DNA from: Amaurobius ferox
Lineage: Eukaryota > Arthropoda > Arachnida > Araneae > Amaurobiidae
Assembly: GCA_951213105.1 (NCBI GenBank)
Contig: OX578148.1
Location: forward strand, 142,544,043 to 142,608,042
DNA length: 64,000 nt
Reading direction: 5' to 3'
A program made the position numbers and the translations under genes. Under the pieces are notes generated by a model. The model searched no databases. It saw only the letters and a program-made list of their open reading frames with translations, and was not told the origin of the DNA. This document shows, in pieces, positions 2,356 through 34,424 of the stretch (the stretch's first letter is position 1; every line of letters begins with the position of its first letter).

Positions 2356-2404
2356 AATTTAAACAATTTAGAGATAAATCAGTTAACTTCCCTCGTGATC
2401 AGGT

Positions 2405-5400
2405 ATGGCATTTCTTGCGAAAGGTAGAAAAGAGGATTTGATGGTTTTGGCGGAAGAATTGGGGATAATTACTAAACCTGAATTTAAAATTTTGGATTTG
2501 CGTAGAGAAATTCTTGGAAGTGAAGACTACGACGAAGAATTTACGAAAGAACTCCTCTTTACTATTATTAAAGAAAGAAAATATCAAATAGAAAAGGAGG
2601 AAAAAGAAAGAAAAGATCAAATAGAAAAGGAGGAAAAAGAAAGAAAAGATCAAATAGAATTTGAGTTAGAAAAACTCAGAATCGAAAGGGGTGTTACTCA
2701 AGATTCTACGTCCTTAAATTTAGGGAGTAGTGAAAGATCAAAAAGCAGTTTCGAATTGATAAAATTGATGCCAAAATTTGACTTGAAGAATGATGACATG
2801 TTATATCTCACGCTTTTTGAGAGACAAGCTAAAAGAGCCCACGTAGACATGACGGATTGGGTGTCAAGTCTGTTGCCACTTTTGCCTTCTGAGATCATAC
2901 AACTCATCACACGGGAGTCAGAGGAAAAGTTTGAAGATTATGAATACGTTAAGGGTATTCTATTAAAGAGATTCAAGATGAATCCAGAAAGTTTCCGAAA
3001 AAAGTTCGTGCAGCTACAGAAAGTTCCCGAGAAATCGTGGCGTGATTTCGTATTTGAATTAACCAGGTACTTTGAAGAGTGGATTGATGGTCTCGAAATT
3101 AGAGATTTTGATAGCCTAAAGAAATTGATGATTACTGATCAACTAAAGAAAAGGGTACCTGGGGAGGTACGAGAACATTTCTTAGATGAATGGTTAAAAA
3201 TTGTAGCACCCAATATGTTGGCAGACAAGTTAGATGAATATGAAAGTATACGTGTAAACTATACGAAATCAACAGGTATAGTCCGGAAAGAGAAGGTTGA
3301 GTATCACCAAAGCGAATTTAGGGAAAAGGAAAAATTTGGAGCACCACCAAACATCACAGGGGTTGGCGAAAAAATTTGGAAAAATGGAAATGTTCCAGGA
3401 AGGGGACATCAAAGTTACAAGAGCCAACCAGGTTACAATTGGAGAAATGACACTTCTAAAATCAACTATAAACCTATTTGTTTTTCATGTGGAGCTGAGG
3501 GTCATATTGGAAAATTTTGTACGTTAAGGAATAATCAGAGAAAATCACCCAACACTAATGCTCAAAGCAATCATGTTCGAACTATACAGTCTAAGGATGA
3601 AAATAACTCTCAAGTTCTGACAGCACGAATTACCGTACCGGTGTCAGTGCAGGATAATACCAAGAATAATGTGGATACCCTCCATACCATACATATAAAA
3701 TGTGGAGAAACTTCACTTGTAGGCATAGTAGATTCGGGGGCACAAATCTCAGTGATACGTGAAGATTTAGTAATGGACGTTCATAGTGAAGGAGAGGGCA
3801 GAATCAAAATTGTCTCAGCTTTTGGAGAAAGTGAGATCGCTCCTTTGAAGATGATTTTGATGAAAATTGATGACAAATTACATGGAATAGTCCCCATAAT
3901 ATGTGCAGTTTCTAAAAAACTAACAAGTGATATGTTAGTGTGCTCTACAGCTTATGAGTCGTTGCGGGAGAATATACATTTGCATGAATTGGATCAGAAT
4001 ATCATGATCGATAATGCTACCTATCTTGGCGAAAAGGAGGAGAAAGTAGGGTCTGACCAGGAAGTAATGAATGAAAATGGTCAAGAAGAAAATACGTGCA
4101 GTGACCATGGTACTGTGAATGCTACTCAGGTCGAGAGTGATGGGAAACAAGAGCAGAAGTCGAGTAAGGATAACGAAGTAAAGAGCTCGTTTATTCAATT
4201 GCAACATGAAGATGAGACGTTGAGAAAAGTCTGGGACTATGCAAGAAAGGGACAAAATGCATACGAGATAATTGACGAAGTCTTGGTCCATTCTGAATGG
4301 ATTACGGGTGAGACAGTCAAACAAGTAGTTTTGCCGATCTGCAAACGCCAAGATGTTCTTAGAATGGCTCACGAGATTCCATTAGCTGGCCATTTGGGAG
4401 AACAAAAGACTAGACAGAGAATTAAATTTTCATTCTTTTGGCCTACCCTAAAACAAGATGTGGCCAAATTTTGTGAAAGCTGCAAGATTTGTCAGATGAG
4501 ACGAGTTGTTACATACAGGGACAGAATTCCCATACAACCGATAGCGAGACCAGAAACGCCTTTCGAAGTTTGGAGTTTAGATTGCATTGGCCCGTTAGAA
4601 CCTCCTTCTGGGCGAGGACATAAGTATATTATATGTGCGATAGATCTGTGTACAAGATGGGCTGAAGCCATTCCGGTTAAAGAAATCGGTGCAAAAACAA
4701 CATGCAATGCATTGATGAAAATTTTTACTCAGACCGGGTTTCCAAAATTGATCTGCACTGATCAAGGAACATATTTTACAGCAAAATTAACTGAAGCATT
4801 TTTAGGTATATTAGGGATATCTCCCAGATTTTCTACACCTGGACATCCCGAAAGCATGGGTGCTGTGGAGAGATGGAATAGAAATTTGAAAAATATGATG
4901 AACAAAAATATTCAGGAATATGGGCGGAATTGGGATATACACCTTCCCTACCTTCTGTTTGCATATAGAGAAGTTCCCCATAGTACAACAGGTGTATCAC
5001 CGTTTCAGCTAGTATATGGACGCCTACCCCCAGGACCACTTGCTCTACTAAAAGATGTATGGATCGGTGAAAGGAAAATTCCCACCAAGGCATCCCGAAA
5101 TGTGGAGGAATATCTACATGATCTAATAGAGAAATTGAAAAAAGGACATGAGATTGCAACTCAGAAATCCGAAGTAACTCAGGAAAATTACGCTTCTAGA
5201 TACAATTTGAGATCAAAAGAAAAACATTTTAAGATCGGGGATAAGGTTTTAATTTTATTGCCCTCATCCAGCCATAAGTTACAAAACACTTGGATGGGTC
5301 CAGTGACGGTTATTCAGCTTACAAGGCCAAATTCGGCTGTTGTAGAATACGATGACGGAACTCGAAGAGAATTACATGTAAACAAATTGAGACCCTACAT

Positions 5401-6925
5401 CAATCGTATCGAACAAATCGGACTTATTTTCGACGAAGACAAAGAATTTGGAGAACTGCATTGTGTGCTTACAAACCGAGTTAACATTACGCGAAAGGAA
5501 GTAAGAAAGTATATTGAGGGGAAAACAACGACCTTGGAAACAGAACAACGCCTACAACTAAGTTCCTTACTATGCAATTTTCATGACGTTTTTAGCACTA
5601 TCCCTGGACGGGCGAAGGTGGAAGGGCATTCCATCAAGGTTACCTCAGAGTGTAGCCCTAAAAAGTTACATCCATATCGTATTCCTATGTCATTGCAGAA
5701 AGAAGTGGATCGTCAAATACAAGAATTACTAAATCTAAAATTGATTGAACCAAGCGACAGCGATTGGGCGCATCCCCTTGTATGTGTAGCAAAAAAGGAT
5801 GGTAGCGTCAGACTTTGCGTCGATTTTAGATTGCTGAACAGTTTTACAGTGCCCAATGCTTATCCAATGAAAGTTGCTGATGAACTCAAAATGCTCATAG
5901 GAGACTCTCAATATATCACAGTTCTAGATATGACCAAGGGGTACTGGAAAATCCATATGAAAGAGGATGACAAACCCTACACAGCATTTGTGACCCATGC
6001 CGGACATTTTCAGTGGAGAGTGTTACCTTTCGGTCTGAAGAATGCAGGAAGCACATTTCAGAAATCAATGGACCACGTGTTGGCATCTCACCAGGAGTAT
6101 TGTCGGTCTTACATTGATGATGTTGCTATATTTTCAAAAACGTGGCTCGATCATTTGTCCCACATAAATGCTGTATTCAAAACATTGCGTGAAGTTGGAC
6201 TAACTGTAAATCTAAACAAATGTGATTTCGGAAAAAATGAAGTGAAATTTTTGGGCCATATTATAGGATCGGGACGACATTCTCCTGACCCAGATAAGGT
6301 TGAAACGATGAAAAAATTAGCACGGCCTATTGATAAGAGGGAATTAAGGGGTATTTTAGGACTAGCTAACTATTACCGAGATTATATCCCAAATGTCGCT
6401 TCAGTAGTGATACCCTTAACTGATCTAACCAAGAAAAGAATACCAAACAAGATACCATGGAGTAGAAAGGAAGAAGATGAGTTTACAAAGTTGAAGCAAT
6501 GTTTAACTGAAATGGCGGTTCTTTACACCCCTGAACTTAACAAACCCTTTCAGCTTTATACCGACGCGTCCGGTACCGCGGTAGGAGCTTGTTTGGCGCA
6601 AGAAGATGATTCCAAGAAGGAAAAACCGATCGCCTTCTATAGTAAAAAGCTCACCCCCTGTCAGACTCGTTGGTCTACGATTGAAAGGGAAGCATATAGC
6701 GTCATCGCTGCTCTTAAGAAATATGAGACTTGGATCTTCGGGTCAGAAGTACAAATTATCTCGGATCATAATCCGCTGACCTACTTAACCCATACAGTGC
6801 CGCAAAGTGCAAAGTTGGCTCGGTGGGCCTTAGCCCTCCAGCGATACAATATTACAATCAGTTATCGAAAGGGAGCGTTACACGGAAACGCGGACGCTAT
6901 GTCTAGAATTCCCATGACTGACTAA
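2405..6925 (+). CDS. Gag-protease-integrase-RT-RNase H polyprotein
   Basis: A single uninterrupted frame of 1,506 codons encodes all retrotransposition proteins. Gag occupies about residues 1-390, with a charged coiled-coil near 60-85 made of EKEEKERKDQI repeats. A CCHC knuckle (C359, C362, H367, C372) follows. The aspartic protease DSGA lies near 442. Integrase has an HHCC finger (about 655-692) and a DD35E core (D in SLDCIG near 726, D in CTDQG near 785, E in GAVERWN near 822). RT follows, with motif YIDD near 1235, then RNase H with TDAS near 1384 and a HGNADAMSR end near 1493. Integrase before RT is opposite to most Ty3/gypsy elements. No frameshift separates gag from pol, so Gag:Pol ratio would need proteolysis or another mechanism. 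The start is the first ATG after the leader array. All catalytic residues are present. Confidence 0.93.
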   Translation: MAFLAKGRKEDLMVLAEELGIITKPEFKILDLRREILGSEDYDEEFTKELLFTIIKERKYQIEKEEKERKDQIEKEEKERKDQIEFELEKLRIERGVTQDSTSLNLGSSERSKSSFELIKLMPKFDLKNDDMLYLTLFERQAKRAHVDMTDWVSSLLPLLPSEIIQLITRESEEKFEDYEYVKGILLKRFKMNPESFRKKFVQLQKVPEKSWRDFVFELTRYFEEWIDGLEIRDFDSLKKLMITDQLKKRVPGEVREHFLDEWLKIVAPNMLADKLDEYESIRVNYTKSTGIVRKEKVEYHQSEFREKEKFGAPPNITGVGEKIWKNGNVPGRGHQSYKSQPGYNWRNDTSKINYKPICFSCGAEGHIGKFCTLRNNQRKSPNTNAQSNHVRTIQSKDENNSQVLTARITVPVSVQDNTKNNVDTLHTIHIKCGETSLVGIVDSGAQISVIREDLVMDVHSEGEGRIKIVSAFGESEIAPLKMILMKIDDKLHGIVPIICAVSKKLTSDMLVCSTAYESLRENIHLHELDQNIMIDNATYLGEKEEKVGSDQEVMNENGQEENTCSDHGTVNATQVESDGKQEQKSSKDNEVKSSFIQLQHEDETLRKVWDYARKGQNAYEIIDEVLVHSEWITGETVKQVVLPICKRQDVLRMAHEIPLAGHLGEQKTRQRIKFSFFWPTLKQDVAKFCESCKICQMRRVVTYRDRIPIQPIARPETPFEVWSLDCIGPLEPPSGRGHKYIICAIDLCTRWAEAIPVKEIGAKTTCNALMKIFTQTGFPKLICTDQGTYFTAKLTEAFLGILGISPRFSTPGHPESMGAVERWNRNLKNMMNKNIQEYGRNWDIHLPYLLFAYREVPHSTTGVSPFQLVYGRLPPGPLALLKDVWIGERKIPTKASRNVEEYLHDLIEKLKKGHEIATQKSEVTQENYASRYNLRSKEKHFKIGDKVLILLPSSSHKLQNTWMGPVTVIQLTRPNSAVVEYDDGTRRELHVNKLRPYINRIEQIGLIFDEDKEFGELHCVLTNRVNITRKEVRKYIEGKTTTLETEQRLQLSSLLCNFHDVFSTIPGRAKVEGHSIKVTSECSPKKLHPYRIPMSLQKEVDRQIQELLNLKLIEPSDSDWAHPLVCVAKKDGSVRLCVDFRLLNSFTVPNAYPMKVADELKMLIGDSQYITVLDMTKGYWKIHMKEDDKPYTAFVTHAGHFQWRVLPFGLKNAGSTFQKSMDHVLASHQEYCRSYIDDVAIFSKTWLDHLSHINAVFKTLREVGLTVNLNKCDFGKNEVKFLGHIIGSGRHSPDPDKVETMKKLARPIDKRELRGILGLANYYRDYIPNVASVVIPLTDLTKKRIPNKIPWSRKEEDEFTKLKQCLTEMAVLYTPELNKPFQLYTDASGTAVGACLAQEDDSKKEKPIAFYSKKLTPCQTRWSTIEREAYSVIAALKKYETWIFGSEVQIISDHNPLTYLTHTVPQSAKLARWALALQRYNITISYRKGALHGNADAMSRIPMTD

Positions 6926-9173: not shown

Positions 9174-9179
9174 CTTGTC
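9174..9179. other. Left target-site duplication of the palindromic element
   Basis: CTTGTC immediately before the 5'-AG terminus at 9180; the identical hexamer follows the other end at 23132-23137. A 6-bp duplication is the standard length for Polinton/Maverick integration. Confidence 0.88.
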
Positions 9180-9440
9180 AGCAGGGGAATAGGGAGAGTT
9201 CAGCGGCACTTCAGAGGAAGTAAAGTGCTATACTTTAACATGGGGAACCCTCCGAGGCCAGAAAATGAGTGCATCAACAGAGGCGGTGCTTTAACATAGG
9301 GATTCTCACAAGTCGGTGTGAGGCAGCACAGTTCCATAAGGTGACGTCACAGAAGAGAGTGGAGTGTATGACGTATATTGTTTTTTCTTTTTCTTTTTTT
9401 CCTATATTTTTTGGCAAATGTAAGTTTTCTACTTCTGTAA

Positions 9441-9960
9441 TTTTTTTTTTTTTTTTTTTTTTTTTTAAATGTGGTAATGGGAAAAATTAACATTTTGTTA
9501 AAATGTTCCAAAACCGTAAAAAAGTAACAAAAAATGTGGTAATGGGCAAAATTAACATTTTGCGTCTTTTTTTTGAAAATGTTAATTTCTCTATGGGAAT
9601 TAACATGGGTTTTCACACTTTTGTAATTTTTTTTCAAAAAATGTGGTAATGGGAAAAATTAACTTTTTGTACAAAATGTCTCAAAAACGTAAAAAAGTAA
9701 CAAAAAATGTGGTAATGGGCAAAATTAACATTTTTGCGATTTTCTTCAAAATTCCAATTTCTCTATGGGAATTAACATGGGTTTTCGCACCTTTGTAATT
9801 TTTTTACAAAAAAATGTGCGTTTTTACAAAAATGGTACTAAAAATGTGGTAATGGGAAAAATTAACTTTTTGCACAAAATGTTGCAAAAACGTAAAAAAA
9901 CAACAAAAATGTGTGTTTTTTACAAAAATGTGATAAAAAAGCGAGTTTTCAAAGTAGCAG
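9441..9960 (+). repeat. Subterminal degenerate tandem repeats of the left arm
   Basis: A run of 26 T is followed by about three imperfect units of roughly 190 bp built from ATGTGGTAATGGG, AAAATTAACTTTTTG and CTATGGGAATTAACATGGG. The mirrored copy occupies about 22390-22877, with a run of about 30 A. These repeats lie between the terminus and the 3' end of the gene. They could be replication-origin or packaging-like terminal repeats, or simple slippage products. Frames called here are repeat artefacts. Confidence 0.75.
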
Positions 9961-10232
9961 AATCGCATGAATTGGGTGTATGGGAGGGGGTGTGTTTCCT
10001 CAACCGGTCTCGGATTTTAATATTTGTAAACAATAGCAGATACTTGTTTTCAACTATCCAAATGCAGTAATGTCTCTTTAATAAATTAGATGCTGTTAGA
10101 AAAATATATTATTTTTTTAATTGTTGTCCCATCTCCACCCGGTGTATAGGATACACCGCCACAATTTCTATTTTTTTTTTCTTTTTTCCTATTTTTTTTC
10201 CCTTTTTTTCCTTCTTTCTCTTTTTCCTTTTT

Positions 10233-13200
10233 TTATTTTTTTATTTTAAAGTGTCCGTAGGCATAACTTGTAATGCCGTCCTCGAGTAAATATCTTTTAT
10301 CATCAATGGGTGACAAAGCCACCTTGTTCTGGCATACAGTGAATAGTTTATGATGGCTACTATCTATTCTAATCTGTTCTTCCATGGTAGATCTAACACT
10401 CAACAGGCATTGTCTATAGTCATTATGTGTAATTTTCCGTGCAACCACATGTGTAGAAACACCTTTAGCTCTTTTCTTTTCTCCAGCAGCTGATAGAATA
10501 GAGTACATTTTAGGTCTAAGTCCGATAAACTCTTGAATGGGGGTTGAATTCAGTTCATCTTTAAAATATCCAATACGCTTTTTATTGTCTTCACTGAAGA
10601 GGGGATGATCCTTGGGATAGTCAGAAAAATCATACAGCTGTTTATGCTGGTTCATATCTTCATAAATATCAGCAGTTTGGATTTCATAAGCCAATGAATC
10701 AGTATCGGTGAAGAGAAGCGAAGCTTTTTCACCATATTGACTTTTAATATGTTTATAATGAAACTCATACATCAGGAGTTTAGATAACTCTAAGATAGCA
10801 AAGCCAACATATATAGGCCGATTCATTAAAATGCAACTCTTTACACGTTCAACACCCACCAGATCTTCGCTAAAAATCCTGCTAGCTCTATAAGCTGGAG
10901 ATGCCACCACCTTCAGGGCCCGCTTTGAAGAATTCACTAGTTCAATATTCACTCGATTTCGAAGATTCTCCATCGTTTTTCCAAACACAGCGTTATTAAG
11001 CAATTTAAAAAAGTCTTTCGAAAAATTAGTCTTTGCCTTCTTTCTTTCTTCTGTGTTAAATTGGATGTATTTCTCCAACCAAGGCTTCTGATTAAATTTT
11101 AAGGCCTTGTGAATTTTCTTGAGTCTTAAACCTAATGATAGGTATAGCTGAAGGTTGCGATAGTGAACAATATAATGTTTCTTGTCACGCAGATTGGATA
11201 CCAATTTCATAGTACTAACAAAATGTCCATGATGTAACTGTTGAACCAGTCGCTCAGCATAGGGGGAGAGCATTTCTCGTTCAATCTTCACCCTTTCAGG
11301 AGCTAGAGGGTATTCATTATGATAATCATGTAAGGATTCAGGATACTCCAGATCCACTTCAAATATATATCCTTCTTGGGTATTATCCTTTAGACTCATT
11401 ATCCAGGATTCATTCAAATTTTCTGTAGATATCCATTCAAAGCTACCATAGGGCAGTGGTTGAGACATGGCCCAACCATATAGGCTATTAGCATCAAGAT
11501 AGATAATGTGCTTATCAGGCTTAGAAGAATCGTAATTTTCCAAATAACGATTATTAGCCTCGGATCTACGCTGACTTATCATACATATGCCACCGCGGAT
11601 TCCACGTTCTATAAACAGTAACATATTTTCATCTGTGAGTAGTTCTAGGGTTTGCTCAGTCATTTTCAAAGAGGCCTGCCAAGCCAGTCCAGGGGCGGTC
11701 ATCATATGAGCGGCGTCTAAATCATAGTTCTTTTTGCAAATTTTTCGAAAATTCTCAAATACATCGGCTAATAGTAGCACATCCGTTTTTACATACAGGT
11801 CGTGGTATTCTCCCAAGTTCTTTATGTTGAAGGTATCCCATACAGTTTGGGCATGCCGATAATCTTCACTCTTAATATCTTCTCCTTTAATATCATTATG
11901 AAATGCAGAAGGGGAAGGGAGTACATTTTCATCAAATTTTTGAAAGGATGTCATATAGCTATAGGGATATACTCCTTTCCTAATAAGAGCATTCTGTTGT
12001 ACTATATCAGGGAAATGTTCTCTGAGAATATGAAATTCACTCAAGTCTAAATTGGAAACTAGCTTTTCCAGGGAAGCATTCAGAAACTGTAGGCTATCAA
12101 TAAATTGTAAACAGACAAGGGGCCCCTCTTTCTTTGAAATCTTAAAAGATATGTATTTTTCCATATTAGTGGCAATCACATCAATTTTATGGTCTTGCAA
12201 TTTCCCAAAACTCAGCATAATATGATGAGAGTCATAATTTTTTAAATTATGAAACACTACAGGAATATTAATACTTTGTCTATAGTTAAGATTACAGGCA
12301 TTATGCAGAGCACCTCTATAGGCTCCAGTCACGTGATTGTGATCACGCACACAATTTGTTTTCAGTTCACGATGGCACACGTTGCAATGGGTAGCTCTTT
12401 CAAAGTCAACTTCATTCTCCTTAGTCATTCGCAGTGGTTTAACATAACGTAATTTTTCTCCAAGGTACTGTTTCTCCATTATCAAGTTGTTAAGAAAATG
12501 ATTCACAGGGTCGATACCTCGATACACAGTAGCTTGTTTCAGGCATTTTCCATCAGGTCCTATGATAACATAAGCATATCCACAAGGTTCATGAATTGCT
12601 AGTCTATGCGTGTAAGATCTAATATTCGAGGGTTTTGTAGTGTCTTCTTTAACGATCAGGACTTCAAAGTCAGCATAAATTATGAAAGGGATGGAATGCT
12701 GATACTGTTTGTTCGTGAATTGGAGATATTTCTGATCTTCCGAGGGCATTTTAATGCGCTGAGGTGCATGTTCTTTACAATATTGAGCATGATCTTGCAA
12801 AAGATCGTCTCTGCTGTAACGATGTAAACATCTATAACATATATATCGGGCTCCATTGTGCTTAGTTATATCTCCCAGCAAGCGTGACATATTCCTTATG
12901 AGAGTATAGTGTTGCTTATCTTCATCACTAATCAACAGGAGATTCACACAGTCTTCATCTTCACGTTTGGATATATGCAAAGGAAAAATATCTTCATCTT
13001 CGTATCCATATACATTTATTCGTATATTATTCAAGTTTTCAATCTGAGGAATCTTCACAACTGAGATGGGGTATCGAATATCTCCAAGTTTAATGTCATT
13101 CTCAAAACCTTTATAATGTGACACTCTTTCAGGCTTATATTCACGGGATATATAGTATTTGTGGGCCAATAGGCACCACATCAGGCATTTCTCGTCTTCA

Positions 13201-14431
13201 TTTCGAATATTGAGTAAAGCTTTCTTGGCTGCAAGTTTTGTTGGCAAGGGTATATAGCTAGAAGCTGCAATAGGCTTATACTTTGCACAGAAAACATCTA
13301 TCTTTCGCATCTTTTGTAAAGTCCATCCAGAACCGCGGCTGACAAATTCTTCGAATAACTTCAAGATTTGAGAAAAGGCTTCTTCAACATTGTTGGGAGG
13401 GGTATCATCACGAAGTTCTGTCACAACATCTGTTCTAAAATATGAGCTGGATACCTCTTGGCCATTTGCAATGTCACGAATAAATTGCACATCCGCAATA
13501 AGATACCACTTAATAGATCTGTATGCATCAAGTTCGTCTTTTAATATCTTCAATAGCTGAGGGCGAATCTCATCAAAACATAGCATAAGATCCCCCTCTA
13601 CACTTTCAGTGGGTTCCAGAGTGTGTACAGAGAATACATCTAAGCCCTTCTTCTTTGCTGCAATCTTGGGGCGTTTATTAGAAGTTGAGGCTAAAGCAGG
13701 AGCTTTTCTCTTTTTAGAACCATGTTCAATACGGTGGTGGCGCAGGGCGTCACTTTTCTTGCTGAATATAAGTTCACAATGCTTGCATTTCATACCATCC
13801 TTCAGATGAAGTATCAGATGGCGCTTCAGGTTATCTCGTCTAGTAAACTGTATGGAGCATTGAGTGCATTCAAACACTTTAACGGGAGAATGCGTATTCG
13901 TATGTCTAGCTAAGTCTTCCTTACGAACAAATGCACGTTCGCATACTTTACATCGATAATTCAAGGCATCATCGTCAGAATGAATCCTCACATGGCGCAC
14001 TAAGCTTCGTTTTGCCATGAAGCTCTTCGCACAACTAGGACACACCTGCAAAAGATAAAAAAATACAAAACTTTAGTATAAACACGCTATTCTCGGTAAC
14101 AATGTAATACATTTCTCAAGATGTATATAAAGAAATCATGAATCCATTATATTACCCCCATTAGAAATAAGAAAATTCCTGAATTAAAGAATAATCCAGA
14201 TACAAGACATTTCATGTAAGATCCCCAATACATTTCATTAAATTCATAAAAACACTCATTAAAAAAGTTGTTACGCATCATAAAAATACAAAGTTTAATA
14301 AAATGGGAGAATAAAATCACATTAAAACAAGTACTTACATGTCCAATCCTGTTCAAAGAGGGCGCATTAAGCATAGGAACATCAGTAACGGTAGGGATAG
14401 TACCTCCGATATTACTTTCTAAGGCAAACAT
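10233..14431 (-). CDS. Zinc-finger/protein-primed type B DNA polymerase, intact copy (two exons)
   Basis: Proposed exons on the minus strand: 14431-14339 (31 codons from ATG) and 14045-10233, joined in phase 0 across a GT-AG intron (14338-14046, donor GTAAGT). Unspliced, the second exon has no good ATG, since its frame opens at TTG inside the acceptor. The protein is about 1,300 residues. Four C2H2 fingers occur in exon 2 residues 1-115, then a lysine-rich NLS-like stretch, and a fifth C2H2-like finger near 395-420. DNA polymerase B motifs follow: exonuclease YADFE (~460), an endonuclease VII/HNH-like insert with CxxC, DHNHVTG and HxxCN (~555-590), ExoII NLKNYDSH, ExoIII YxxxD in YVKTD, motif A DANSLYG (~851), motif B KLLNNAVFGKT (~1018) and motif C DTDS (~1115). 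All key acids are present. It resembles Polinton pPolB. Confidence 0.87.
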
Positions 14432-15180
14432 ATTCGCAGAAGAACTTCAAACACGTCTTAACAGCACGAAACTCACAACAGAAATGATAAAATCGCTGCT
14501 TGAAGATCACCTACACCCATTCATAAAAAAATAGTTCTTGGTGTATCCATCCGCCAAGGGCATGTCAAGGTCACGTGATAGTTATATCACGGTTACCGTT
14601 AAACTTGCAACACACGAAGGTAATTATGCACACATCCGATAAAAAATAAACAATTCGTTCAACATCGCAATCGATTATATCCTTTTTAATAATCGTAATC
14701 GATATATTAAATAAATTCACATCTTAAAAAATAATAGATTTTAATAAAATAATGAAAGAAAATCCCTTTGCGAGACCCCTTAGAACCCCCAATCCTTAAA
14801 CAATACAACAACGCGCTACTCCCTTACAAGCATAAAACCCCCGAATAACATATACTCCTCTCTCCCCCTCCCTCCCCGAGACACCAACACTCACTTCACC
14901 ACACGTTAAACGTAACCCATAGCAACCGGAATCCATAATAAAACATTCACCTTCACCCCCAACGTACATCCAAATACACAGTCATTCGACGTTAAACCCG
15001 TAATTTTTACGGCAAAACGCACTTTACAGGGATTCATAGAACAAAAAATCCTAAAAAATCATAAAAAATCAACAAATTCACCCAGAAACTAGCTAAAACC
15101 CTCAAATTACTTATAATTATCAACTACATATGCTATATAACCATTTATAACTTTAAAAAGGTGAGTATGCTAGTAGTAAG

Positions 15181-15839
15181 AATAGGGGTGTTCGCCAGAA
15201 TGCGGTTAGAGCAATGCCGCCTAAAAATAGTTTCTGGAAAGAAAAAATAAATATTTTTTGGTATTTCCAGAAAGTATCCTCTATGTCATATTTTTGTAAA
15301 ATTAAAAAAAGTTTTTAAAAAATTTTAAAAACTCAATTTTTTATTAATTTTCACAAAATTCCTAATTTCCCCATTAGTATCCCTTTAGGCCGCTAGGGGA
15401 CGCTGATGGTTCCATACCTTCTTCGTCGCAGAGGCGGAGGTGTTGCCACCTCGAAAAAAGTTTATCTCCCACAGGTGTTGCTATGGCAACCCAAACAAAA
15501 AAATATTTCTAAGTTCTATCCCCGATAGTTCCGCTTTTCGCCGCTAGGAGGCGCTGATGGTTTCATACCTCTTTCGTCGCAGAGGCGGAGGTGTTGCCAC
15601 CTCGAAAAAAGTTTATCCCATACTTAGAAAAATCTCATTCCAAAAATTTATTTCCCCCTCAACCCCTCGTACAAGACTACGACATCGTTGCCACCCGACA
15701 AAAAAAGTTTCTCCAAAATTTTTACCCCCACCTTTTTTTCATTTTCCCCCTTTTACACCCCCGTCCAGGATTACGGAATTCAAGATGGCGGCCCTACCTC
15801 ATACCTCGCATACCTCCTTCGTTGCAGAACTCTCCTTTT
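15181..15839. other. Unique centre of the palindrome
   Basis: About 660 bp that is not mirrored. It contains a direct repeat about 155 bp apart (about 15390-15465 and 15546-15620) with GCTGATGGTT, GTCGCAGAGGCGGAGGTG and TTGCCACCTCGAAAAAAG. A short inverted pair TTTCTGGAAA/TTTCCAGAAA lies near 15231-15272. Two overlapping open frames (15557-15875) have low-complexity, proline-rich translations with no recognisable domain, so I do not call a gene. The two polymerase genes diverge from here, so promoters probably lie on either side. Confidence 0.75.
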
Positions 15840-16157
15840 CTTACTACTAGCATACTCACCTTTTTAAAGTTATAAATGGTTATATAGCATATGTAGATGA
15901 TAATTATAAGTAATTTGAGGGTTTTAGCTAGTTTCTGGGTGAATTTGTTGATTTTTTAGGATTTTTTGTTCTATGAATCCCTGTAAAGTGCGTTTTGCCG
16001 TAAAAATTACGGGTTTAACGTCGAATGACTGTGTATTTGGATGTACGTTGGGGGTGAAGGTGAATGTTTTATTATGGATTCCGGTTGCTATGGGTTACGT
16101 TTAACGTGTGGTGAAGTGAGTGTTGGTGTCTCGGGGAGGGAGGGGGAGAGAGGAGTA

Positions 16158-17458
16158 CTGTCCTACCGCCACGAGAAAGTCTCTGAACAGGGTTGCCGCA
16201 AGTAGACGAGTCGGAGAAAGGTTTAAAATCGACTGCAACATTTGGCAAATCAAGCGCACTTCGTTAAGCGGAGAATCCGTTTCGTTTATCATGATGTACT
16301 AAAAGAAAATAGTAGATGTTTTTTATCCGACAGTTAAACAAAATTTTTCGTATTAAATGACATTAAATTATAAATTAACTTAAAAATTCCTCGTCATCTA
16401 TACTCAGAAAATAATTTGTTATTATAGGCGACAGCGGCTACGGGAAGCCGTCAATCTATTAGAACAAAGTAGTTTTAGATATTTTCTTTTAGGTTCGGGC
16501 GATTTTGGGAGAGAAAAGCTTACAATTTAAAACTAGAATTTATATCATTTTGTTTAAAACTAAATTTCGAATTAAATGAAAATTATTACAGTTTTCAATC
16601 AGCAAGTTACACAATTATTAGCCAGCAAAAAGGAAAAAATAAATGATAAATAAGCAAAATTATGACTTATTCATTATATTATTCATTCAATATATTCATT
16701 CTTTTCATATTTTTCAATCAATTATAAAATATTTATTCACATTCATTGGAATAACTATTATCTACTATGTCCGAATCACTTAAAATGTTTTTACTTGAAG
16801 AAGAGTCTGAATCGCTATCCGACAGATTTCTCACTAATTTCTTCACAATATCTTCTATCGGTCCATCTTTCTTCCAATAAATATTCTCTATTTTTTCAAT
16901 GTGTTCACAGTGTTTTTTCCATTCATTTTGTGTTACTTTTAAAATAGTTTCTTTAAGCAATAATTGTAAATTGTTCATATAGATAAAATACTTATCTCAG
17001 TGTCATTAAGCGATTTCCCCTCACGTTTTATCTTTTTAACTGATGACGCTGAAACCTCTATCGCTTCCGCAGTTCTCTTCATTGCATTTGAAATTGGTAT
17101 TTTTAGAGAATTTGCGGTTTTTCTTCTTCCAAAAATGCCGTAAGATTGTGGACTATTGCCTATGCTTGCGAATGCAAAGTTTTTCCACTTTTAAATGTAG
17201 TCATTTTTCAACTAGACAAAATCCACAAAGTGTTCAACACAGTACAAGTTACTTCACAGCTTTAAAAATCACAAAATGCGAGCGCCTAGTATTGACCCCA
17301 GTGCAAAGCGAAATGCGGCGACTTTCGTCGGTTCTATCTGCGCCAAATCGAAAAAAGCGCTTTCCGTCACACCTAAAATGCAGTGGAATAACCTGTTTCC
17401 ATAGCGACCTCCACCAAAACGTCTGCTGTCTGGGGACTTTCTCGTGGCGGTAGGGCAG
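16158..17458 (-). mobile_element. Tc1/mariner-type deletion derivative in the right arm only
   Basis: 1,301 bp flanked by TA on both sides. Terminal inverted repeats are about 24 bp (CTGTCCTACCGCCACGAGAA... against CTGCCC..., one mismatch). The left arm has the empty site, a single TA at 14853-14854, so the insertion happened after the two arms existed. Internal coding remains are only the two ends of a transposase. Confidence 0.88.
16733..17110 (-). pseudogene. Internally deleted DDE transposase (HTH start plus acidic tail)
   Basis: On the minus strand, about 17100-17000 encodes a helix-turn-helix-like stretch (RTAEAIEVSASSVKKIKREG). The 16978-16733 frame then encodes 81 residues with VTQNEWKKHCEHIEKIE and a serine/aspartate-rich tail. 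This pattern matches my recollection of the N-terminal HTH and the C-terminal end of an arthropod Tc1/mariner-like DDE family that ends in an acidic Ser-Asp tail. The catalytic core between them is missing, so it is non-autonomous. Family naming is from memory and moderately sure. Confidence 0.55.
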
Positions 17459-17881
17459 TATATGTTATTCGGGGGTTTTATGCTTGTAAGGGAGTAGCGC
17501 GTTGTTGTATTGTTTAAGGATTGGGGGTTCTAAGGGGTCTCGCAAAGGGATTTTCTTTCATTATTTTATTAAAATCTATTATTTTTTAAGATGTGAATTT
17601 ATTTAATATATCGATTACGATTATTAAAAAGGATATAATCGATTGCGATGTTGAACGAATTGTTTATTTTTTATCGGATGTGTGCATAATTACCTTCGTG
17701 TGTTGCAAGTTTAACGGTAACCGTGATATAACTATCACGTGACCTTGACATGCCCTTGGCGGATGGATACACCAAGAACTATTTTTTTATGAATGGGTGT
17801 AGGTGATCTTCAAGCAGCGATTTTATCATTTCTGTTGTGAGTTTCGTGCTGTTAAGACGTGTTTGAAGTTCTTCTGCGAAT

Positions 17882-20800
17882 ATGTTTGCCTTAGAAAGTA
17901 ATATCGGAGGTACTATCCCTACCGTTACTGATGTTCCTATGCTTAATGCGCCCTCTTTGAACAGGATTGGACATGTAAGTACTTGTTTTAATGTGATTTT
18001 ATTCTCCCATTTTATTAAACTTTGTATTTTTATGATGCGTAACAACTTTTTTAATGAGTGTTTTTATGAATTTAATGAAATGTATTGGGGATCTTACATG
18101 AAATGTCTTGTATCTGGATTATTCTTTAATTCAGGAATTTTCTTATTTCTAATGGGGGTAATATAATGGATTCATGATTTCTTTATATACATCTTGAGAA
18201 ATGTATTACATTGTTACCGAGAATAGCGTGTTTATACTAAAGTTTTGTATTTTTTTATCTTTTGCAGGTGTGTCCTAGTTGTGCGAAGAGCTTCATGGCA
18301 AAACGAAGCTTAGTGCGCCATGTGAGGATTCATTCTGACGATGATGCCTTGAATTATCGATGTAAAGTATGCGAACGTGCATTTGTTCGTAAGGAAGACT
18401 TAGCTAGACATACGAATACGCATTCTCCCGTTAAAGTGTTTGAATGCACTCAATGCTCCATACAGTTTACTAGACGAGATAACCTGAAGCGCCATCTGAT
18501 ACTTCATCTGAAGGATGGTATGAAATGCAAGCATTGTGAACTTATATTCAGCAAGAAAAGTGACGCCCTGCGCCACCACCGTATTGAACATGGTTCTAAA
18601 AAGAGAAAAGCTCCTGCTTTAGCCTCAACTTCTAATAAACGCCCCAAGATTGCAGCAAAGAAGAAGGGCTTAGATGTATTCTCTGTACACACTCTGGAAC
18701 CCACTGAAAGTGTAGAGGGGGATCTTATGCTATGTTTTGATGAGATTCGCCCTCAGCTATTGAAGATATTAAAAGACGAACTTGATGCATACAGATCTAT
18801 TAAGTGGTATCTTATTGCGGATGTGCAATTTATTCGTGACATTGCAAATGGCCAAGAGGTATCCAGCTCATATTTTAGAACAGATGTTGTGACAGAACTT
18901 CGTGATGATACCCCTCCCAACAATGTTGAAGAAGCCTTTTCTCAAATCTTGAAGTTATTCGAAGAATTTGTCAGCCGCGGTTCTGGATGGACTTTACAAA
19001 AGATGCGAAAGATAGATGTTTTCTGTGCAAAGTATAAGCCTATTGCAGCTTCTAGCTATATACCCTTGCCAACAAAACTTGCAGCCAAGAAAGCTTTACT
19101 CAATATTCGAAATGAAGACGAGAAATGCCTGATGTGGTGCCTATTGGCCCACAAATACTATATATCCCGTGAATATAAGCCTGAAAGAGTGTCACATTAT
19201 AAAGGTTTTGAGAATGACATTAAACTTGGAGATATTCGATACCCCATCTCAGTTGTGAAGATTCCTCAGATTGAAAACTTGAATAATATACGAATAAATG
19301 TATATGGATACGAAGATGAAGATATTTTTCCTTTGCATATATCCAAACGTGAAGATGAAGACTGTGTGAATCTCCTGTTGATTAGTGATGAAGATAAGCA
19401 ACACTATACTCTCATAAGGAATATGTCACGCTTGCTGGGAGATATAACTAAGCACAATGGAGCCCGATATATATGTTATAGATGTTTACATCGTTACAGC
19501 AGAGACGATCTTTTGCAAGATCATGCTCAATATTGTAAAGAACATGCACCTCAGCGCATTAAAATGCCCTCGGAAGATCAGAAATATCTCCAATTCACGA
19601 ACAAACAGTATCAGCATTCCATCCCTTTCATAATTTATGCTGACTTTGAAGTCCTGATCGTTAAAGAAGACACTACAAAACCCTCGAATATTAGATCTTA
19701 CACGCATAGACTAGCAATTCATGAACCTTGTGGATATGCTTATGTTATCATAGGACCTGATGGAAAATGCCTGAAACAAGCTACTGTGTATCGAGGTATC
19801 GACCCTGTGAATCATTTTCTTAACAACTTGATAATGGAGAAACAGTACCTTGGAGAAAAATTACGTTATGTTAAACCACTGCGAATGACTAAGGAGAATG
19901 AAGTTGACTTTGAAAGAGCTACCCATTGCAACGTGTGCCATCGTGAACTGAAAACAAATTGTGTGCGTGATCACAATCACGTGACTGGAGCCTATAGAGG
20001 TGCTCTGCATAATGCCTGTAATCTTAACTATAGACAAAGTATTAATATTCCTGTAGTGTTTCATAATTTAAAAAATTATGACTCTCATCATATTATGCTG
20101 AGTTTTGGGAAATTGCAAGACCATAAAATTGATGTGATTGCCACTAATATGGAAAAATACATATCTTTTAAGATTTCAAAGAAAGAGGGGCCCCTTGTCT
20201 GTTTACAATTTATTGATAGCCTACAGTTTCTGAATGCTTCCCTGGAAAAGCTAGTTTCCAATTTAGACTTGAGTGAATTTCATATTCTCAGAGAACATTT
20301 CCCTGATATAGTACAACAGAATGCTCTTATTAGGAAAGGAGTATATCCCTATAGCTATATGACATCCTTTCAAAAATTTGATGAAAATGTACTCCCTTCC
20401 CCTTCTGCATTTCATAATGATATTAAAGGAGAAGATATTAAGAGTGAAGATTATCGGCATGCCCAAACTGTATGGGATACCTTCAACATAAAGAACTTGG
20501 GAGAATACCACGACCTGTATGTAAAAACGGATGTGCTACTATTAGCCGATGTATTTGAGAATTTTCGAAAAATTTGCAAAAAGAACTATGATTTAGACGC
20601 CGCTCATATGATGACCGCCCCTGGACTGGCTTGGCAGGCCTCTTTGAAAATGACTGAGCAAACCCTAGAACTACTCACAGATGAAAATATGTTACTGTTT
20701 ATAGAACGTGGAATCCGCGGTGGCATATGTATGATAAGTCAGCGTAGATCCGAGGCTAATAATCGTTATTTGGAAAATTACGATTCTTCTAAGCCTGATA

Positions 20801-22080
20801 AGCACATTATCTATCTTGATGCTAATAGCCTATATGGTTGGGCCATGTCTCAACCACTGCCCTATGGTAGCTTTGAATGGATATCTACAGAAAATTTGAA
20901 TGAATCCTGGATAATGAGTCTAAAGGATAATACCCAAGAAGGATATATATTTGAAGTGGATCTGGAGTATCCTGAATCCTTACATGATTATCATAATGAA
21001 TACCCTCTAGCTCCTGAAAGGGTGAAGATTGAACGAGAAATGCTCTCCCCCTATGCTGAGCGACTGGTTCAACAGTTACATCATGGACATTTTGTTAGTA
21101 CTATGAAATTGGTATCCAATCTGCGTGACAAGAAACATTATATTGTTCACTATCGCAACCTTCAGCTATACCTATCATTAGGTTTAAGACTCAAGAAAAT
21201 TCACAAGGCCTTAAAATTTAATCAGAAGCCTTGGTTGGAGAAATACATCCAATTTAACACAGAAGAAAGAAAGAAGGCAAAGACTAATTTTTCGAAAGAC
21301 TTTTTTAAATTGCTTAATAACGCTGTGTTTGGAAAAACGATGGAGAATCTTCGAAATCGAGTGAATATTGAACTAGTGAATTCTTCAAAGCGGGCCCTGA
21401 AGGTGGTGGCATCTCCAGCTTATAGAGCTAGCAGGATTTTTAGCGAAGATCTGGTGGGTGTTGAACGTGTAAAGAGTTGCATTTTAATGAATCGGCCTAT
21501 ATATGTTGGCTTTGCTATCTTAGAGTTATCTAAACTCCTGATGTATGAGTTTCATTATAAACATATTAAAAGTCAATAAGGTGAAAAAGCTTCGCTTCTC
21601 TTCACCGATACTGATTCATTGGCTTATGAAATCCAAACTGCTGATATTTATGAAGATATGAACCAGCATAAACAGCTGTATGATTTTTCTGACTATCCCA
21701 AGGATCATCCCCTCTTCAGTGAAGACAATAAAAAGCGTATTGGATATTTTAAAGATGAACTGAATTTAACCCCCATTCAAGAGTTTATCGGACTTAGACC
21801 TAAAATGTACTCTATTCTATCAGCTGCTGGAGAAAAGAAAAGAGCTAAAGGTGTTTCTACACATGTGGTTGCACGGAAAATTACACATAATGACTATAGA
21901 CAATGCCTGTTGAGTGTTAGATCTACCATGGAAGAACAGATTAGAATAGATAGTAGCCATCATAAACTATTCACTGTATGCCAGAACAAGGTGGCTTTGT
22001 CACCCATTGATGATAAAAGATATTTACTCGAGGACGGCATTACAAGTTATGCCTACGGACACTTTAAAATAAAAAAATAA
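17882..22080 (+). pseudogene. Zinc-finger/protein-primed DNA polymerase, nonsense-mutated copy
   Basis: Mirror copy of the 14431-10233 gene. Exon 1 is 17882-17974 and exon 2 is 18268-22080, with the same GT-AG intron. Codon TAT of the left copy is TAA here (21577-21579), about nine codons before the catalytic DTDS. A truncated product would keep the zinc fingers, exonuclease, HNH-like insert and motifs A and B but lose motif C, so it should not polymerise. Downstream of the stop one further residue differs (Ser to Leu near 21766). Otherwise the translations are the same. Read-through, or a regulatory role of the truncated zinc-finger protein, is possible but unsupported. Confidence 0.87.
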
Positions 22081-22389
22081 AAAAAGGAAAAAGAGAAAGA
22101 AGGAAAAAAAGGGAAAAAAAATAGGAAAAAAGAAAAAAAAAAATAGAAATTGTGGCGGTGTATCCTACACACCGGGTGGAGGTGGGACCACAATTAAAAA
22201 AATAATATATTTTTCTAACAGCATCTAATTTATTAAAGAGACATTACTGCATTTGGATAGTTGAAAACAAGTATCTGCTATTGTTTACAAATATTAAAAT
22301 CCGAGACCGGTTGAGGAAACACACCCCCTCCCATACACCCAATTCATGCGATTCTGCTACTTTGAAAACTCGCTTTTTTATCACATTTT

Positions 22390-22843
22390 TGTAAAAAACA
22401 CACATTTTTGTTGTTTTTTTATGTTTTTGCAACATTTTGTGCAAAAAGTTAATTTTTCCCATTACCACATTTTTAGTACCATTTTTGTAAAAACGCACAT
22501 TTTTTTGTAAAAAAATTACAAAGGTGCGAAAACCCATGTTAATTCCCATAGAGAAATTGGAATTTTGAAGAAAATCGCAAAAATGTTAATTTTGCCCATT
22601 ACCACATTTTTTGTTACTTTTTTACGTTTTTGAGACATTTTGTACAAAAAGTTAATTTTTCCCATTACCACATTTTTTGAAAAAAAATTACAAAAGTGTG
22701 AAAACCCATGTTAATTCCCATAGAGAAATTAACATTTTCAAAAAAAAGACGCAAAATGTTAATTTTGCCCATTACCACATTTTTTGTTACTTTTTTACGG
22801 TTTTGGAACATTTTAACAAAATGTTAATTTTTCCCATTACCAC

Positions 22844-22877
<34 letters not shown>
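22390..22877 (-). repeat. Subterminal degenerate tandem repeats of the right arm
   Basis: Mirror of 9441-9960, with units built on CCCATTACCACATTTTT and CCCATGTTAATTCCCATAG, ending in a run of about 30 A (22848-22877). Confidence 0.75.
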
Positions 22878-22879
<2 letters not shown>

Positions 22880-23131
22880 ACAAAAGTAGAAAACTTACAT
22901 TTGCCAAAAATATAGGAAAAAAAGAAAAAACAATATACGTCATAAACTCCACTCTCTTCTGTGACGTCACCTTATGGAACTGTGCTGCCTCACACCGACT
23001 TGTGAGAATCCCTATGTTAAAGCACCGCCTCTGTTGATGCACTCATTTTCTGGCTTCGGAGGGTTCCCCATGTTAAAGTATAGCACTTTACTTCCTCTGA
23101 AGTGCCGCTGAACTCTCCCTATTCCCCTACT

Positions 23132-23137
23132 CTTGTC
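23132..23137. other. Right target-site duplication of the palindromic element
   Basis: CTTGTC, identical to 9174-9179. The following 23138-23520 is AT-rich with no gene that I can support. It includes scattered CGCCAAA motifs near 23350-23460 and a short block (GTCGGGTGGTCTGG...TTTTCGAC) also seen near 52010. Confidence 0.88.
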
Positions 23138-23669: not shown

Positions 23670-24346
23670 TATTCTTAGCCATTGTTTTTGTGATCGATCT
23701 TAGCTTTTTATACATTGAATAACTTATTGATTTTGTGATCGTACTTAGCCCTTCATACGTTGAATCTCTTAATTGTTGAACCATTAAATAAATGTATATT
23801 TATTGGAAGAATTTGAATCCTGTATTTACAGCATTGGTTGTATTATTCTTAGATTATATTAGTTCCGAGGTAAAATATTGTGTTTCGTGTTGAATTGATG
23901 GATGTTAATTTGAATCAATTTATTCTGGAATAGTCAATGTGTATATATGTATATTTTTCCACTATTTATCCCAGTTTTGCTTATTCCTAAGCATTTATTT
24001 AATTCAGGTTTCAATGTGTTTACACATTAGTTTATATATTTTCAAAGTGTTTTAGATGATCCATTAGTTTGAAAAATAATGGTACCTTTCATATGTTGTA
24101 ATTGTGTCTCCACTTTTGTATTTGAATTAAGGTGCATTCTTGGCTAAAGAGTCTCTTATTTTGAATGCAAGTGCTTTTATTTTGGGGAAATAAAGTTTAC
24201 TATCTTTCCCCAATTACATGATGTCTTATTATCAAAATTTAGCGACTGGCAACTGGATGCTCTCTGACATCCAAGCTCGGTATTCGAGAACTTGTTGGGG
24301 TTTTCCTAGATCGATATCCAGCTACTAACAATATCCTTTTTCTTCT

Positions 24347-25116
24347 ATGACTATTCCATCTTCATTCGGTACATCCAGCCAGTATTCTTTGTTCACTTCA
24401 TATAACTTTCAATCGTACAGCCCTGCATCACTAAATAACACACTTAAATTTAAATCTTGTAATTCTAATAGATGTAAAACTTGTCCGTTTGCTAATCGTA
24501 ATCAGATCAATTGTAGCAATAATCTTGTCTTCTGTAAAACATATAATTGCATCTACCAAATTGTATATAAAAAATGTAATATGTCATATATAGGTCAAAC
24601 CAGCAACCCTCTGCACCTCCGAATTAACGTACACAGGAATCACATAAAAAATGTTTCAAATAATGCAACTACCCTTAATGAATTAAAATTCGAATATGAA
24701 CATTTTTCTAAATATGGGTTCGACAACATTGAAATTAGTATTCTGTGTATTAAAAAAAATATTATGACAGATTGTTTCTTGAAAATGAATTCATTTGTGC
24801 ACACAAAACTATTTTTCCATATGGGCTCAATCAATTATTTAATCATCATAACATGGTTAAAATGTCCTTTAATTATCCTAATGAAGACCATAATATTTAT
24901 AATTCCTTTAATAATCATAAAAGTAAATCAAAAAGAACTAAAAGAGCAAGTAAATATAACAAAAAATTGCTCTCATTATCTGAACTAAAAAATGCCATCC
25001 TTCAGCAACATGCAAATTTAAAAATTACTTTTGATTGGAAACAATGTAAAAACTGGATTTTCGTAATTAATAAACAGCAATTATTATTAAAGAAAAAACA
25101 GGAAAATTATTATTAA
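24347..25116 (+). pseudogene. GIY-YIG endonuclease part of Naiad-type element 1
   Basis: From ATG 24347, residues 39-77 carry a cysteine cluster (C39, C43, C46, C56, C63, C68, C77) that may bind zinc. It is followed by NCIYQIVYKKCNMSYIGQTS, the GIY-YIG signature, and R92 of LRINVHRNHI as the candidate catalytic arginine. Near 24770 the frame shifts by one and continues as ENEFICAHKTIFPYGLNQ and a basic KRTKRASKY stretch up to 25116, typical of the region after the nuclease in these elements. The expected role is target nicking for primed reverse transcription. The frameshift makes this copy inactive. Confidence 0.8.
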
Positions 25117-32927: not shown

Positions 32928-34424
32928 TGGCTTTCAAAAGTTGAGCACGGACGGTAAAATCAACAAAAATCGAAAAATGAAGCTTCAATGAACTCAAAAT
33001 TGTATATGAAGGTAGAAAATGTGTTTATGCATTCAAGAAAATAAGAATTATGTACAAAGATGAAAAAAATATTTACTTTTCGTAAGTTATATGATGACGT
33101 CATTTTTGGGTCATTAACAAAATGATGATTAAATGCAAATAAACTAAACAAAACTTACATTAATATGGTATGTGACAGCCCCGGACTTTCACACAAACTT
33201 TACAACGATTTCCCATTTCTTCAATGAGGTGATCAACCATCGCAGATGCCAGCAATAGCCATTCATCCAATGGGACAGTTTCCAACTCTCTGAGACTGAC
33301 TGGAGGAGGTAAACCTACAGAAACAGCATGCCCGAGGGTAACCAAAAGGTTTTCTATGGGATTGAGGTCGGGTGAATATGCAGGCCACTCCATACGAGAA
33401 ATGCCCTCACTTTCCAGGTAATCGTCAACGATGTTATCTCGATGAGGACGGGCATTATCGTCCATAAGAAGGAAATCAGGACCAACTGCTGCAGCGTAGA
33501 GTCTCGCAATGGGGTCTAGGACTTCATCCCGATACCGCGCAGTCGTCACAGATCCGCCTGTAAAGATGTGCAGATCCGTGCGATATCCCATTGAACTTCC
33601 AGTCCACACCATGATGCTGTCACCTCTGAATACGTGATGTTCTTGGCCTGATTGCAAGTGCCTCGTTCTCTCCAAATCCTTACACGCTTGTCATCTGATT
33701 CCAGAGCAAATCTGGACTCGTCCGTGTGCAGGACGTTGCTCCAATCTGAGACAGTCTAATTGACTTGTTGACGACACCACTTTAATCTTGCCCCTCTGGC
33801 TTAGACGGTTAGTGGAACACAAAAACGTGGTACTCGTGCGTACAGTCCTTTCACGTAGAGCCTTCGGCGCACAGTACTGGCAGATACTCTCTTGCCAAAT
33901 GCCGCTGAAACCGTGGATTTAACAGTTGTGGAGGTCGCGCGTCGATTCCGCTTGGCTACTATAGCAATATACCGACCATCAAAGAGGGTGGTAATCTTTG
34001 GACGACCGGGCACATGTCTCCGGACAACTGTTTGTCTTGTTTGGAATTGTTCCCATAATAGAGAAATTACCGAATGATCAACGCCAAAAAAATAGCGACA
34101 TCTTTGATTGACTGTCCTGCTTCAATGCGTCCGACAACACGCCAGCACGTCAGAATTCACTATCTGTCATTCGTCTTCTTTCAGTCATAGAAACACGAAT
34201 ATTATCAAACATAATCCTACAAAGGTTATAAACACATTCTATAAGCATTTAAATGTACCTCCTCAAACCCTTCAATCCAGACAGTCAATCGTGATTGGCT
34301 GTAACATACCATATTTCCATGCGGCCATTTACATTCGCAGCGATTTTCAGCCACTCAAATTCAAATACGCTTTCGAAAAATGAAAATTTGAATCGCGTGC
34401 ATAACTTTTGGAAGTCAGTGTATA
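32928..34424 (-). mobile_element. Tc1-like transposon, moderately decayed
   Basis: Terminal inverted repeats: CTGGCTTTCAAAAGTTGAGC at the left; the right end (34401-34424) reads as the complement of CACTGACTTCCAAAAGTTAT. Both are flanked by TA-rich sequence. Size is about 1.5 kb, with the transposase on the minus strand. The next transposon begins at 34425 with no gap. Confidence 0.8.
33160..34188 (-). pseudogene. Tc1-like DD34E transposase, nearly complete but broken
   Basis: It runs from a possible ATG at 34188 to TAA at 33160. The N-terminal frame has MTDSEF followed by a stop, then the paired-type HTH region with HVPGRPKITT (about 34020-33990) and SASTVRRRLYVKGLYARVPR (about 33880-33820). 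The catalytic core has DESRFALES (about 33720), LLMDDNARPH (about 33470) and SPDLNPIENL (about 33365), with 34 residues between the second Asp and the Glu, hence DD34E. Frame changes between 33800 and 33675 and an early stop inactivate it, but all three acids survive. It is the best preserved Tc1 core in the window. Confidence 0.85.

Follow-up and report, generated by a model that had tools for sequence, protein, structure and literature searches.

A multi-copy palindromic element with Polinton-type ends and a polymerase gene in each arm in the spider Amaurobius ferox

We analysed a stretch of 64,000 nucleotides from Amaurobius ferox (assembly GCA_951213105.1, contig OX578148.1, positions 142,544,043 to 142,608,042; hereafter the window), in which a palindromic transposable element occupies positions 9180-23131. 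All window coordinates given here are positions in this whole stretch. The unit has the order T1 - polymerase arm - T2 - centre - T2' - polymerase arm' - T1', where T1 denotes the outer end and T2 an end-like sequence at the arm/centre border, and it integrates as a palindrome flanked by 6-bp target-site duplications. As argued below, we consider it probable, with moderate confidence, that the element represents a multi-copy family of self-complementary Polinton derivatives that go through a snap-back cycle and receive their integrase in trans.

The two arms of the window element are inverted copies of each other, differing by 19 mismatches and five gap runs (99.6% identity over 5,682 aligned bases), as an earlier note on this DNA had described for arms of about 6 kb; the innermost 341 bases are 95.9% identical and contain a 10-bp gap. 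The AG...CT termini and the perfect CTTGTC duplication reported there were both read at the element borders, where the left end is AGCAGGGG and the right end, reversed, is AGTAGGGG. The note had spoken of a 14-kb palindrome with a unique centre of about 660 bp. The palindrome is real and a single unshared centre exists, but the centre measures 633 bp and the unit is about 12.65 kb, because the largest gap run is a 1,301-bp insert confined to the right arm, a later insertion with a TA duplication; from this duplication we assign it a probable Tc1/mariner-like origin. One zinc-finger/polymerase gene per arm was also confirmed. Both genes point away from the centre; the left one is open and the right one is interrupted by one stop codon. 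Besides the polymerase, the single open reading frame (ORF) of at least 120 amino acids lies inside the insert, so that no element-owned integrase (rve), packaging ATPase, protease or capsid gene was found among the ORFs of this size, in agreement with the note, and smaller genes are possible. The ORF lists of three more elements contain polymerase pieces and other frames that carry no domain scan. Several features reported here had escaped the earlier description, whose palindrome, polymerase and ends stand: the 1,301-bp insert, the polymerase intron, the putative relic ends at the borders, the endonuclease-VII-like domain and the derivatives with a deletion in a single arm.

The polymerase gene has two predicted exons, a 31-residue exon 1 and a large exon 2, separated by a 293-bp intron (Table 1). 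In the 25 pieces searched, exon 1 with its donor GTAAGT was present in 22 arm copies, namely the window's two and 20 from 13 other elements, and a strict acceptor pattern accompanied 12 of the 22. Exon 1 with its donor was not found in L053 and L054, though both hold that part of the arm. A protein search returned 987 relatives. Of the 120 listed, spider proteins with about 53% identity ranked highest among those named; a family-B DNA polymerase (PolB) named 'Parasteatoda house spider adintovirus' was 49% identical over 87% of the query, and molluscs and a coral ranked below the spiders. In a 16-sequence alignment, YADFE, which we take to be the exonuclease motif, DANNLYG, KLMNN and DTDS, presumably the polymerase motifs, and the endonuclease columns were for the most part invariant or close to it. 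The endonuclease-VII-like segment of the window polymerase scored 22.4 bits, just below the Pfam cut-off of 23.6, whereas the same domain scored E 0.01 or better in 16 of the 16 relatives scanned, with several Cys, Asp and His columns invariant; zinc-finger parts were likewise present in relatives. The predicted structure of residues 440-1279 had a mean predicted local distance difference test (pLDDT) score of 91.8. Its top structural match was phi29 DNA polymerase (E 4e-18), as were all of the first nine matches, one of them an entry in complex with the terminal protein; judged by this predicted fold, the element's polymerase is a protein-primed PolB. Note that the Pfam family DNA_pol_B_2 (PF03175) matched neither the polymerase nor the relatives scanned, that an IMG/VR search with the polymerase gave no relative, and that PDB sequence searches gave only zinc-finger proteins among the 60 matches listed of 168 and of 331.

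Table 1. Features of the palindromic element and its borders in the window
Feature	Positions	Strand	Remarks
Target-site duplication CTTGTC, left	9174..9179		identical to 23132-23137
Outer end T1, left (AGCAGGGGAATAGGGAGAGTTCAGC)	9180..9204	+	read directly; family form AGTAGGGGAWTAGGGARAGTTCWGC
Left palindrome arm	9180..15193	+	inverted copy of 15827-23131 minus insert
Diverged tandem repeats (families D1-D3) near the arm's outer end	9465..9909	+	mirrored at 22360-22861 in the right arm
Left-arm polymerase exon 2	10233..14045	-	C2H2 zinc fingers, endonuclease-VII-like segment, exonuclease, family-B polymerase; open
Left-arm polymerase predicted exon 1 (31 aa)	14339..14431	-	donor GTAAGT, 293-bp intron
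Putative relic end T2, left arm/centre border	15172..15196	+	oriented as T1; border 24-mer recurs genome-wide
Unshared centre (loop)	15194..15826		contains a 99-bp tandem duplication
Putative relic end T2, right arm/centre border (AGTAGTAAGAAAAGGAGAGTTCTGC)	15824..15848	-	matches T1 at 19/25 positions
Right palindrome arm, interrupted by insert	15827..23131	-	inverted copy of left arm
Tc1/mariner-like insertion, 1,301 bp	16158..17458		TA duplication, inverted ends, absent from left arm; foreign to the element
Right-arm polymerase predicted exon 1	17882..17974	+	counterpart of left-arm exon 1
Right-arm polymerase exon 2	18268..22080	+	one stop codon, 21577-21579
Outer end T1, right (AGTAGGGGAATAGGGAGAGTTCAGC)	23107..23131	-	read directly
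Target-site duplication CTTGTC, right	23132..23137		identical to left duplication

The genome (3.56 Gb, 276 contigs) was then searched for further copies, and exact-match end counts were controlled with the backwards sequence. The exact 25-bp end AGTAGGGGAWTAGGGARAGTTCWGC occurred 425 times (213 + 212; control 0/0), and an exact 24-mer across the arm/centre border occurred 182 + 202 times (control 0). Pairing of the outer ends was analysed for the first 100 listed of the 425: 76 of them formed 38 inward-facing pairs, of which 23 spanned 12.2-13.6 kb, 11 were shorter and 4 longer, and 24 ends were unpaired. The first 100 listed border 24-mers gave 40 convergent pairs and 20 unpaired occurrences; the pairs spanned 550-578 bp (11), 667-718 bp (23), 811-939 bp (five) and 235 bp (one), so that one centre, mainly of 0.55-0.7 kb, is common to most copies. 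An outer arm query matched all 40 places scored among 3,404 candidates, many of them inward-facing pairs, and a query made of the centre and 141 bp from either arm matched over its full length at 36 of the 40 places scored among 2,845 candidates. The supposition that many copies share the same centre joining two polymerase arms was thus borne out, and the copies and duplications that the note had proposed to count are numerous and distinct. Specifically, 15 of the 16 elements with both ends read had perfect 6-bp target duplications, all different, and that of the sixteenth (C1:112729194) agreed at five of six bases; the palindrome C21:15141137, for which one end was read, was left out of this count.

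In 14 of the 16 pairs with both outer ends and borders exact, the arm lengths were equal to within 254 bp, and in six of these 14 to within 4 bp. The remaining two pairs differed by 3.6 and 6.4 kb, and in one pair both arms were about 360 bp longer than usual. A correlation of arm lengths (-0.20, 15 elements) was set aside since it was dominated by one deletion derivative (2,690 vs 6,279). As separate observations, two pairs of centres were closely similar, namely L036 with C19:133471607-133472817 and L013 with L014 (C5), 34.5 kb and 255 kb apart; these are probably local segmental duplications.

That the palindrome is a mirror artefact of the assembly, or one locally rearranged Polinton, has next to no credence with us. 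Palindromes are hard to assemble, and one C21 copy runs into a 200-base gap; however, the copies are many, lie on many contigs, and are set apart by their target duplications, by mismatches private to each and by insertions confined to one arm. Numerous elements at unrelated sites, each with its own duplication and private arm differences, can be products of neither chance nor mirrored assembly. The copy number, the target duplications and the shared centre ruled out a lone Polinton that had been rearranged, and likewise a tail-to-tail insertion of two elements. The earlier note had named two ways in which it could be wrong: a mirror artefact is contradicted by the many loci with private arm differences, and the notion that all other copies are ordinary Polintons is contradicted by recurrent palindromes sharing one centre.

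With two exceptions, the arms of each copy compared were nearly identical to each other. In nine elements, the main segments were 99.1-99.9% identical arm to arm and 93-98% identical to the window arm, and self-comparison of 11 further centre loci showed seven ordinary ones with inner arms 99.0-99.9% alike. In the polymerase exon, its own partner was the sole nearest neighbour for 16 of the 20 arms. Two sister elements, C1:174796831 and C21:33204897, account for the remaining four; their arms are 0-1 nucleotides apart, and they lie at unrelated sites with different target duplications. All four arms carry the same 20-bp frameshift deletion, and one of them has an additional 14-bp insertion. 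Since this deletion is common to four arms at unrelated sites, a copy in which both polymerases were broken was mobilised and the lesion had reached both arms, indicating that help in trans is likely. In addition, a stop codon was common to both arms of a third element. For the polymerase, the ratio of nonsynonymous to synonymous substitution rates (dN/dS) was 0.11-0.32 in all of the 45 element pairs except the sister pair, indicating that the gene evolves under purifying selection.

Two further classes of copies are re-folded and shortened forms. In L036 and L037, which are among the 11 centre loci compared with themselves, the centre turns back on itself: both halves derive from the same side of the centre and are 99.6% and 99.9% identical, an arrangement that simple deletion cannot produce. 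These re-folded centres support origin by fold-back, as had been suggested earlier, and the folding may have taken place before or after integration. Six shortened elements had lost part of one arm and kept the other beyond the place of exon 1; a match to exon 1 itself was obtained in five of these. Two of the six have a single arm, with terminal repeats of 0.2 kb and 0.7 kb and breaks within 10 bp of the border. The 11 end pairs shorter than 12.2 kb are each of a different size, so that none looks like an amplified form.

These shortened forms also bear on the idea that the ends alone matter and that the polymerase arms are passengers of a parasite of Polinton integrase, resembling a miniature inverted-repeat transposable element and carrying a fossil polymerase. 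Stops or frameshifts in several arms, and the mobilisation of a frameshifted copy, speak for it, but the low dN/dS between elements, the fact that all six shortened derivatives examined retain one arm to beyond the site of exon 1, and the recurrence of the full-length form as opposed to the scattered sizes of the shorter ones make it rather improbable.

Of the 18 stretches searched, 15 contained at the arm/centre border a sequence that resembles the outer end and is oriented like it, with no match in L019, L020 and L023. The degree of likeness between the relic end and T1 in the window was reached by none of 200 resampled sequences; in six other centres the relic ends matched T1 at 18-19 positions, a value reached by 0-1 of 60 resampled sequences each. 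We infer that T2 may be the relic ends of an older inner element, to which a polymerase arm was added at one end and then copied to the other.

The genome also holds integrase-bearing elements of adintovirus type. Adintovirus-type genes (L055 and the ATPase and integrase places) are abundant and mostly have open frames. All 150 packaging-ATPase places scored (of 2,008 candidates) were above the cut-off, and all 40 integrase places scored (of 1,684 candidates) were 92-100% identical; the open frames and the closeness of the integrase copies point to a recent, large-scale spread of such elements. Among the integrase relatives listed, spiders were the best-scoring named ones, and a sea spider was also present. 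One element, read in three pieces, contains an ATPase, a phospholipase-like domain, an rve-chromo integrase and a PolB. Its ends (AGTAGTATCTA, beginning AGTAGTAT) are AGTAG ends within a perfect 6-bp TACAGA duplication, and its end pattern occurs nine times, as three pairs that each enclose an ATPase place and three single occurrences. The earlier note had asked for autonomous relatives with the same termini; this integrase-bearing element resembles T1 in AGTAG and the 6-bp duplication only. In a search that was not exhaustive, neither an integrase-bearing element ending like the palindrome nor an integrase-bearing parent of its polymerase lineage was found. On C21 the distance between an ATPase and a family end is 13.5 kb, but this ATPase lies within another element that has its own ends and duplication.

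The polymerase fragment of the integrase-bearing adintovirus also contains the endonuclease-VII-like domain. This matters for another alternative, in which the element is self-sufficient and the endonuclease-VII-like domain of its polymerase protein does the joining with no borrowed integrase. The conservation of the domain and of its Cys, Asp and His columns across the relatives scanned, and the lack of any other gene found in the element, would agree with it. We nevertheless hold it to be very improbable, given that an integrase-bearing adintovirus has the same domain and that a 6-bp duplication with AG ends is the signature of Polinton integrase.

Our best reading is that the element is a snap-back derivative of an adintovirus-type Polinton with its own polymerase and a borrowed integrase, of which the intermediates and the use of that integrase are inferred from integrated copies. 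The polymerase would start at T1 through protein priming, and the displaced single strand would fold into a hairpin of about 6 kb with a loop of about 0.6 kb. Copying or repair of this hairpin, or a template switch near the loop, would make both arms alike, and the resulting linear duplex would be inserted by integrase supplied in trans from resident adintovirus-type Polintons. The whole would act as a heritable snap-back defective genome that retains its own polymerase; an ancestral Polinton end probably grew by fold-back to the point where the polymerase gene had become part of the terminal repeat. Borrowing of integrase, already suggested in the earlier note, is a proposal that fits the lack of an integrase found in the element, the abundance of integrase-bearing adintoviruses, the AGTAG ends and 6-bp duplication of the one read to both ends, and the mobilised frameshifted copy. 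It is a more tentative idea, and one we lean somewhat against, that these elements form a distinct transposon class: a heritable self-complementary replicon with an extrachromosomal hairpin of about 6 kb and a protein-bound end, whose arms would be renewed from one strand in each cycle, whose single gene product would provide the polymerase and possibly junction cleavage, and whose integration would be parasitic on resident adintoviruses.

Several points weigh against the snap-back reading with borrowed integrase. Over 661 aligned residues, the polymerase of the fully read adintovirus-type element and that of the palindrome are 38% identical, so that the adintovirus-type element is a plausible integrase source and not the parent. 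Its family has only AGTAG and the 6-bp duplication in common with T1, which makes it a candidate donor of integrase at most. In C1-C5, no ATPase was found near a family end, the nearest of 49 places being 455 kb from any of 68 listed ends. The palindrome family was read from chromosomal copies, and neither transcripts nor a hairpin or other extrachromosomal form came to light. Two of the 11 self-compared centre loci, L038 and L039, had no second arm. The arms also differ in some copies: in C2:20866775 (L021/L022) the left arm holds a short tract of another lineage's alleles, a probable sign of exchange between elements, and C2:193928340 integrated with ends from two different subfamilies within one duplication, which speaks against strict homogenisation. 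Chromosomal gene conversion could contribute to the likeness of the arms.

In its full form, this last alternative holds that the element is an ordinary transposon with long inverted repeats, whose arms are kept alike after insertion by chromosomal gene conversion, as in other large genomic palindromes, with no special role for replication. The tract in C2:20866775 shows that elements or arms exchange sequence. On the other hand, arms can drift apart, as in C7:108983024 with 31 mismatches over 3,638 bp, where the other elements mutually agree at 18 of the 19 exon differences. Insertions in one arm persist, and the sister elements are at most 1 nucleotide apart in all four arms despite their different sites. 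Furthermore, changes within elements comprised 24 replacement and 10 silent ones when C2:20866775 was excluded, against 148 replacement and 189 silent changes between elements in four disjoint pairs (p = 0.0036), as expected from arms that were identical at insertion and then drifted; with C2:20866775 included, the within-element ratio was 25:20 and the contrast was not significant (p = 0.15), which also weakens the snap-back reading. Taken together, we regard upkeep by gene conversion as an unlikely explanation of the palindrome, and retain the snap-back reading.

Other mobile elements lie near the palindrome. To its left, at 2399-6925 (+), a 1,508-residue open frame carries integrase domains preceding reverse transcriptase and RNase H, an unusual order that we take to be Gmr1-like. 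Directly to its right, at 24329-24985 (+), lies a GIY-YIG endonuclease-like fragment that scored below the Pfam cut-off and presumably may come from a Penelope-like retroelement, and a DDE_3 transposase fragment was found at 33160-33690 (-).

Polintons are usually pictured as virus-like, many-gene elements. The 425 exact ends in one genome indicate that, in mirror-image form, a polymerase gene with two ends can maintain itself and spread, which suggests that a virus-like transposon may survive as a folded-back half-genome that borrows the remaining machinery. It can now be tested whether transposons with protein priming go through a stage of folded single strands, and whether Polintons within an animal genome relate to one another as satellites and helpers.

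No description of a palindromic or polymerase-only Polinton was found in the open-licence literature searched. Polinton/Maverick and adintovirus-type elements have in common with the present one the 6-bp target duplications, the AG...CT inverted ends and the protein-primed PolB, and endonuclease-VII-like and zinc-finger parts occur in relatives too. Polinton terminal repeats are much shorter than the element, whereas here a terminal repeat of about 6 kb contains the whole polymerase gene. The palindromic element, at about 12.65 kb and with no integrase, ATPase, protease or capsid gene found, also differs from Polintons in size, about 15-25 kb according to the accessible part of PMC6431247. The name 'palindromic Polinton' is thus right for the polymerase and the ends, and by gene content the element is no full member of the group.

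In architecture, the internal repeats of Teratorn are the nearest analogue as far as the accessible parts of PMC5601938 and PMC6431247 describe it, but Teratorn is a 180-kb herpesvirus-piggyBac fusion with its own transposase and a different enzyme class. Bidnaviridae are likewise reduced replicons that have terminal inverted repeats and a PolB derived from Polintons; they are, however, single-stranded DNA viruses with a capsid gene, and no palindromic form is reported in the accessible part of PMC4061559. Snap-back defective genomes are looped self-complementary molecules with one genome end duplicated, a form matched here in integrated state only. Among them, the self-complementary snap-back subgenomes of adeno-associated virus (AAV) also hold one end of a linear replicon in self-complementary form, either symmetric or looped, and replicate with helper functions, according to the accessible part of PMC8235507. 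They belong to a parvovirus system and occur in virions, whereas the palindromic element is integrated, multi-copy and polymerase-coding. By analogy, AAV snap-back genomes would be the nearest working counterpart of the proposed cycle.

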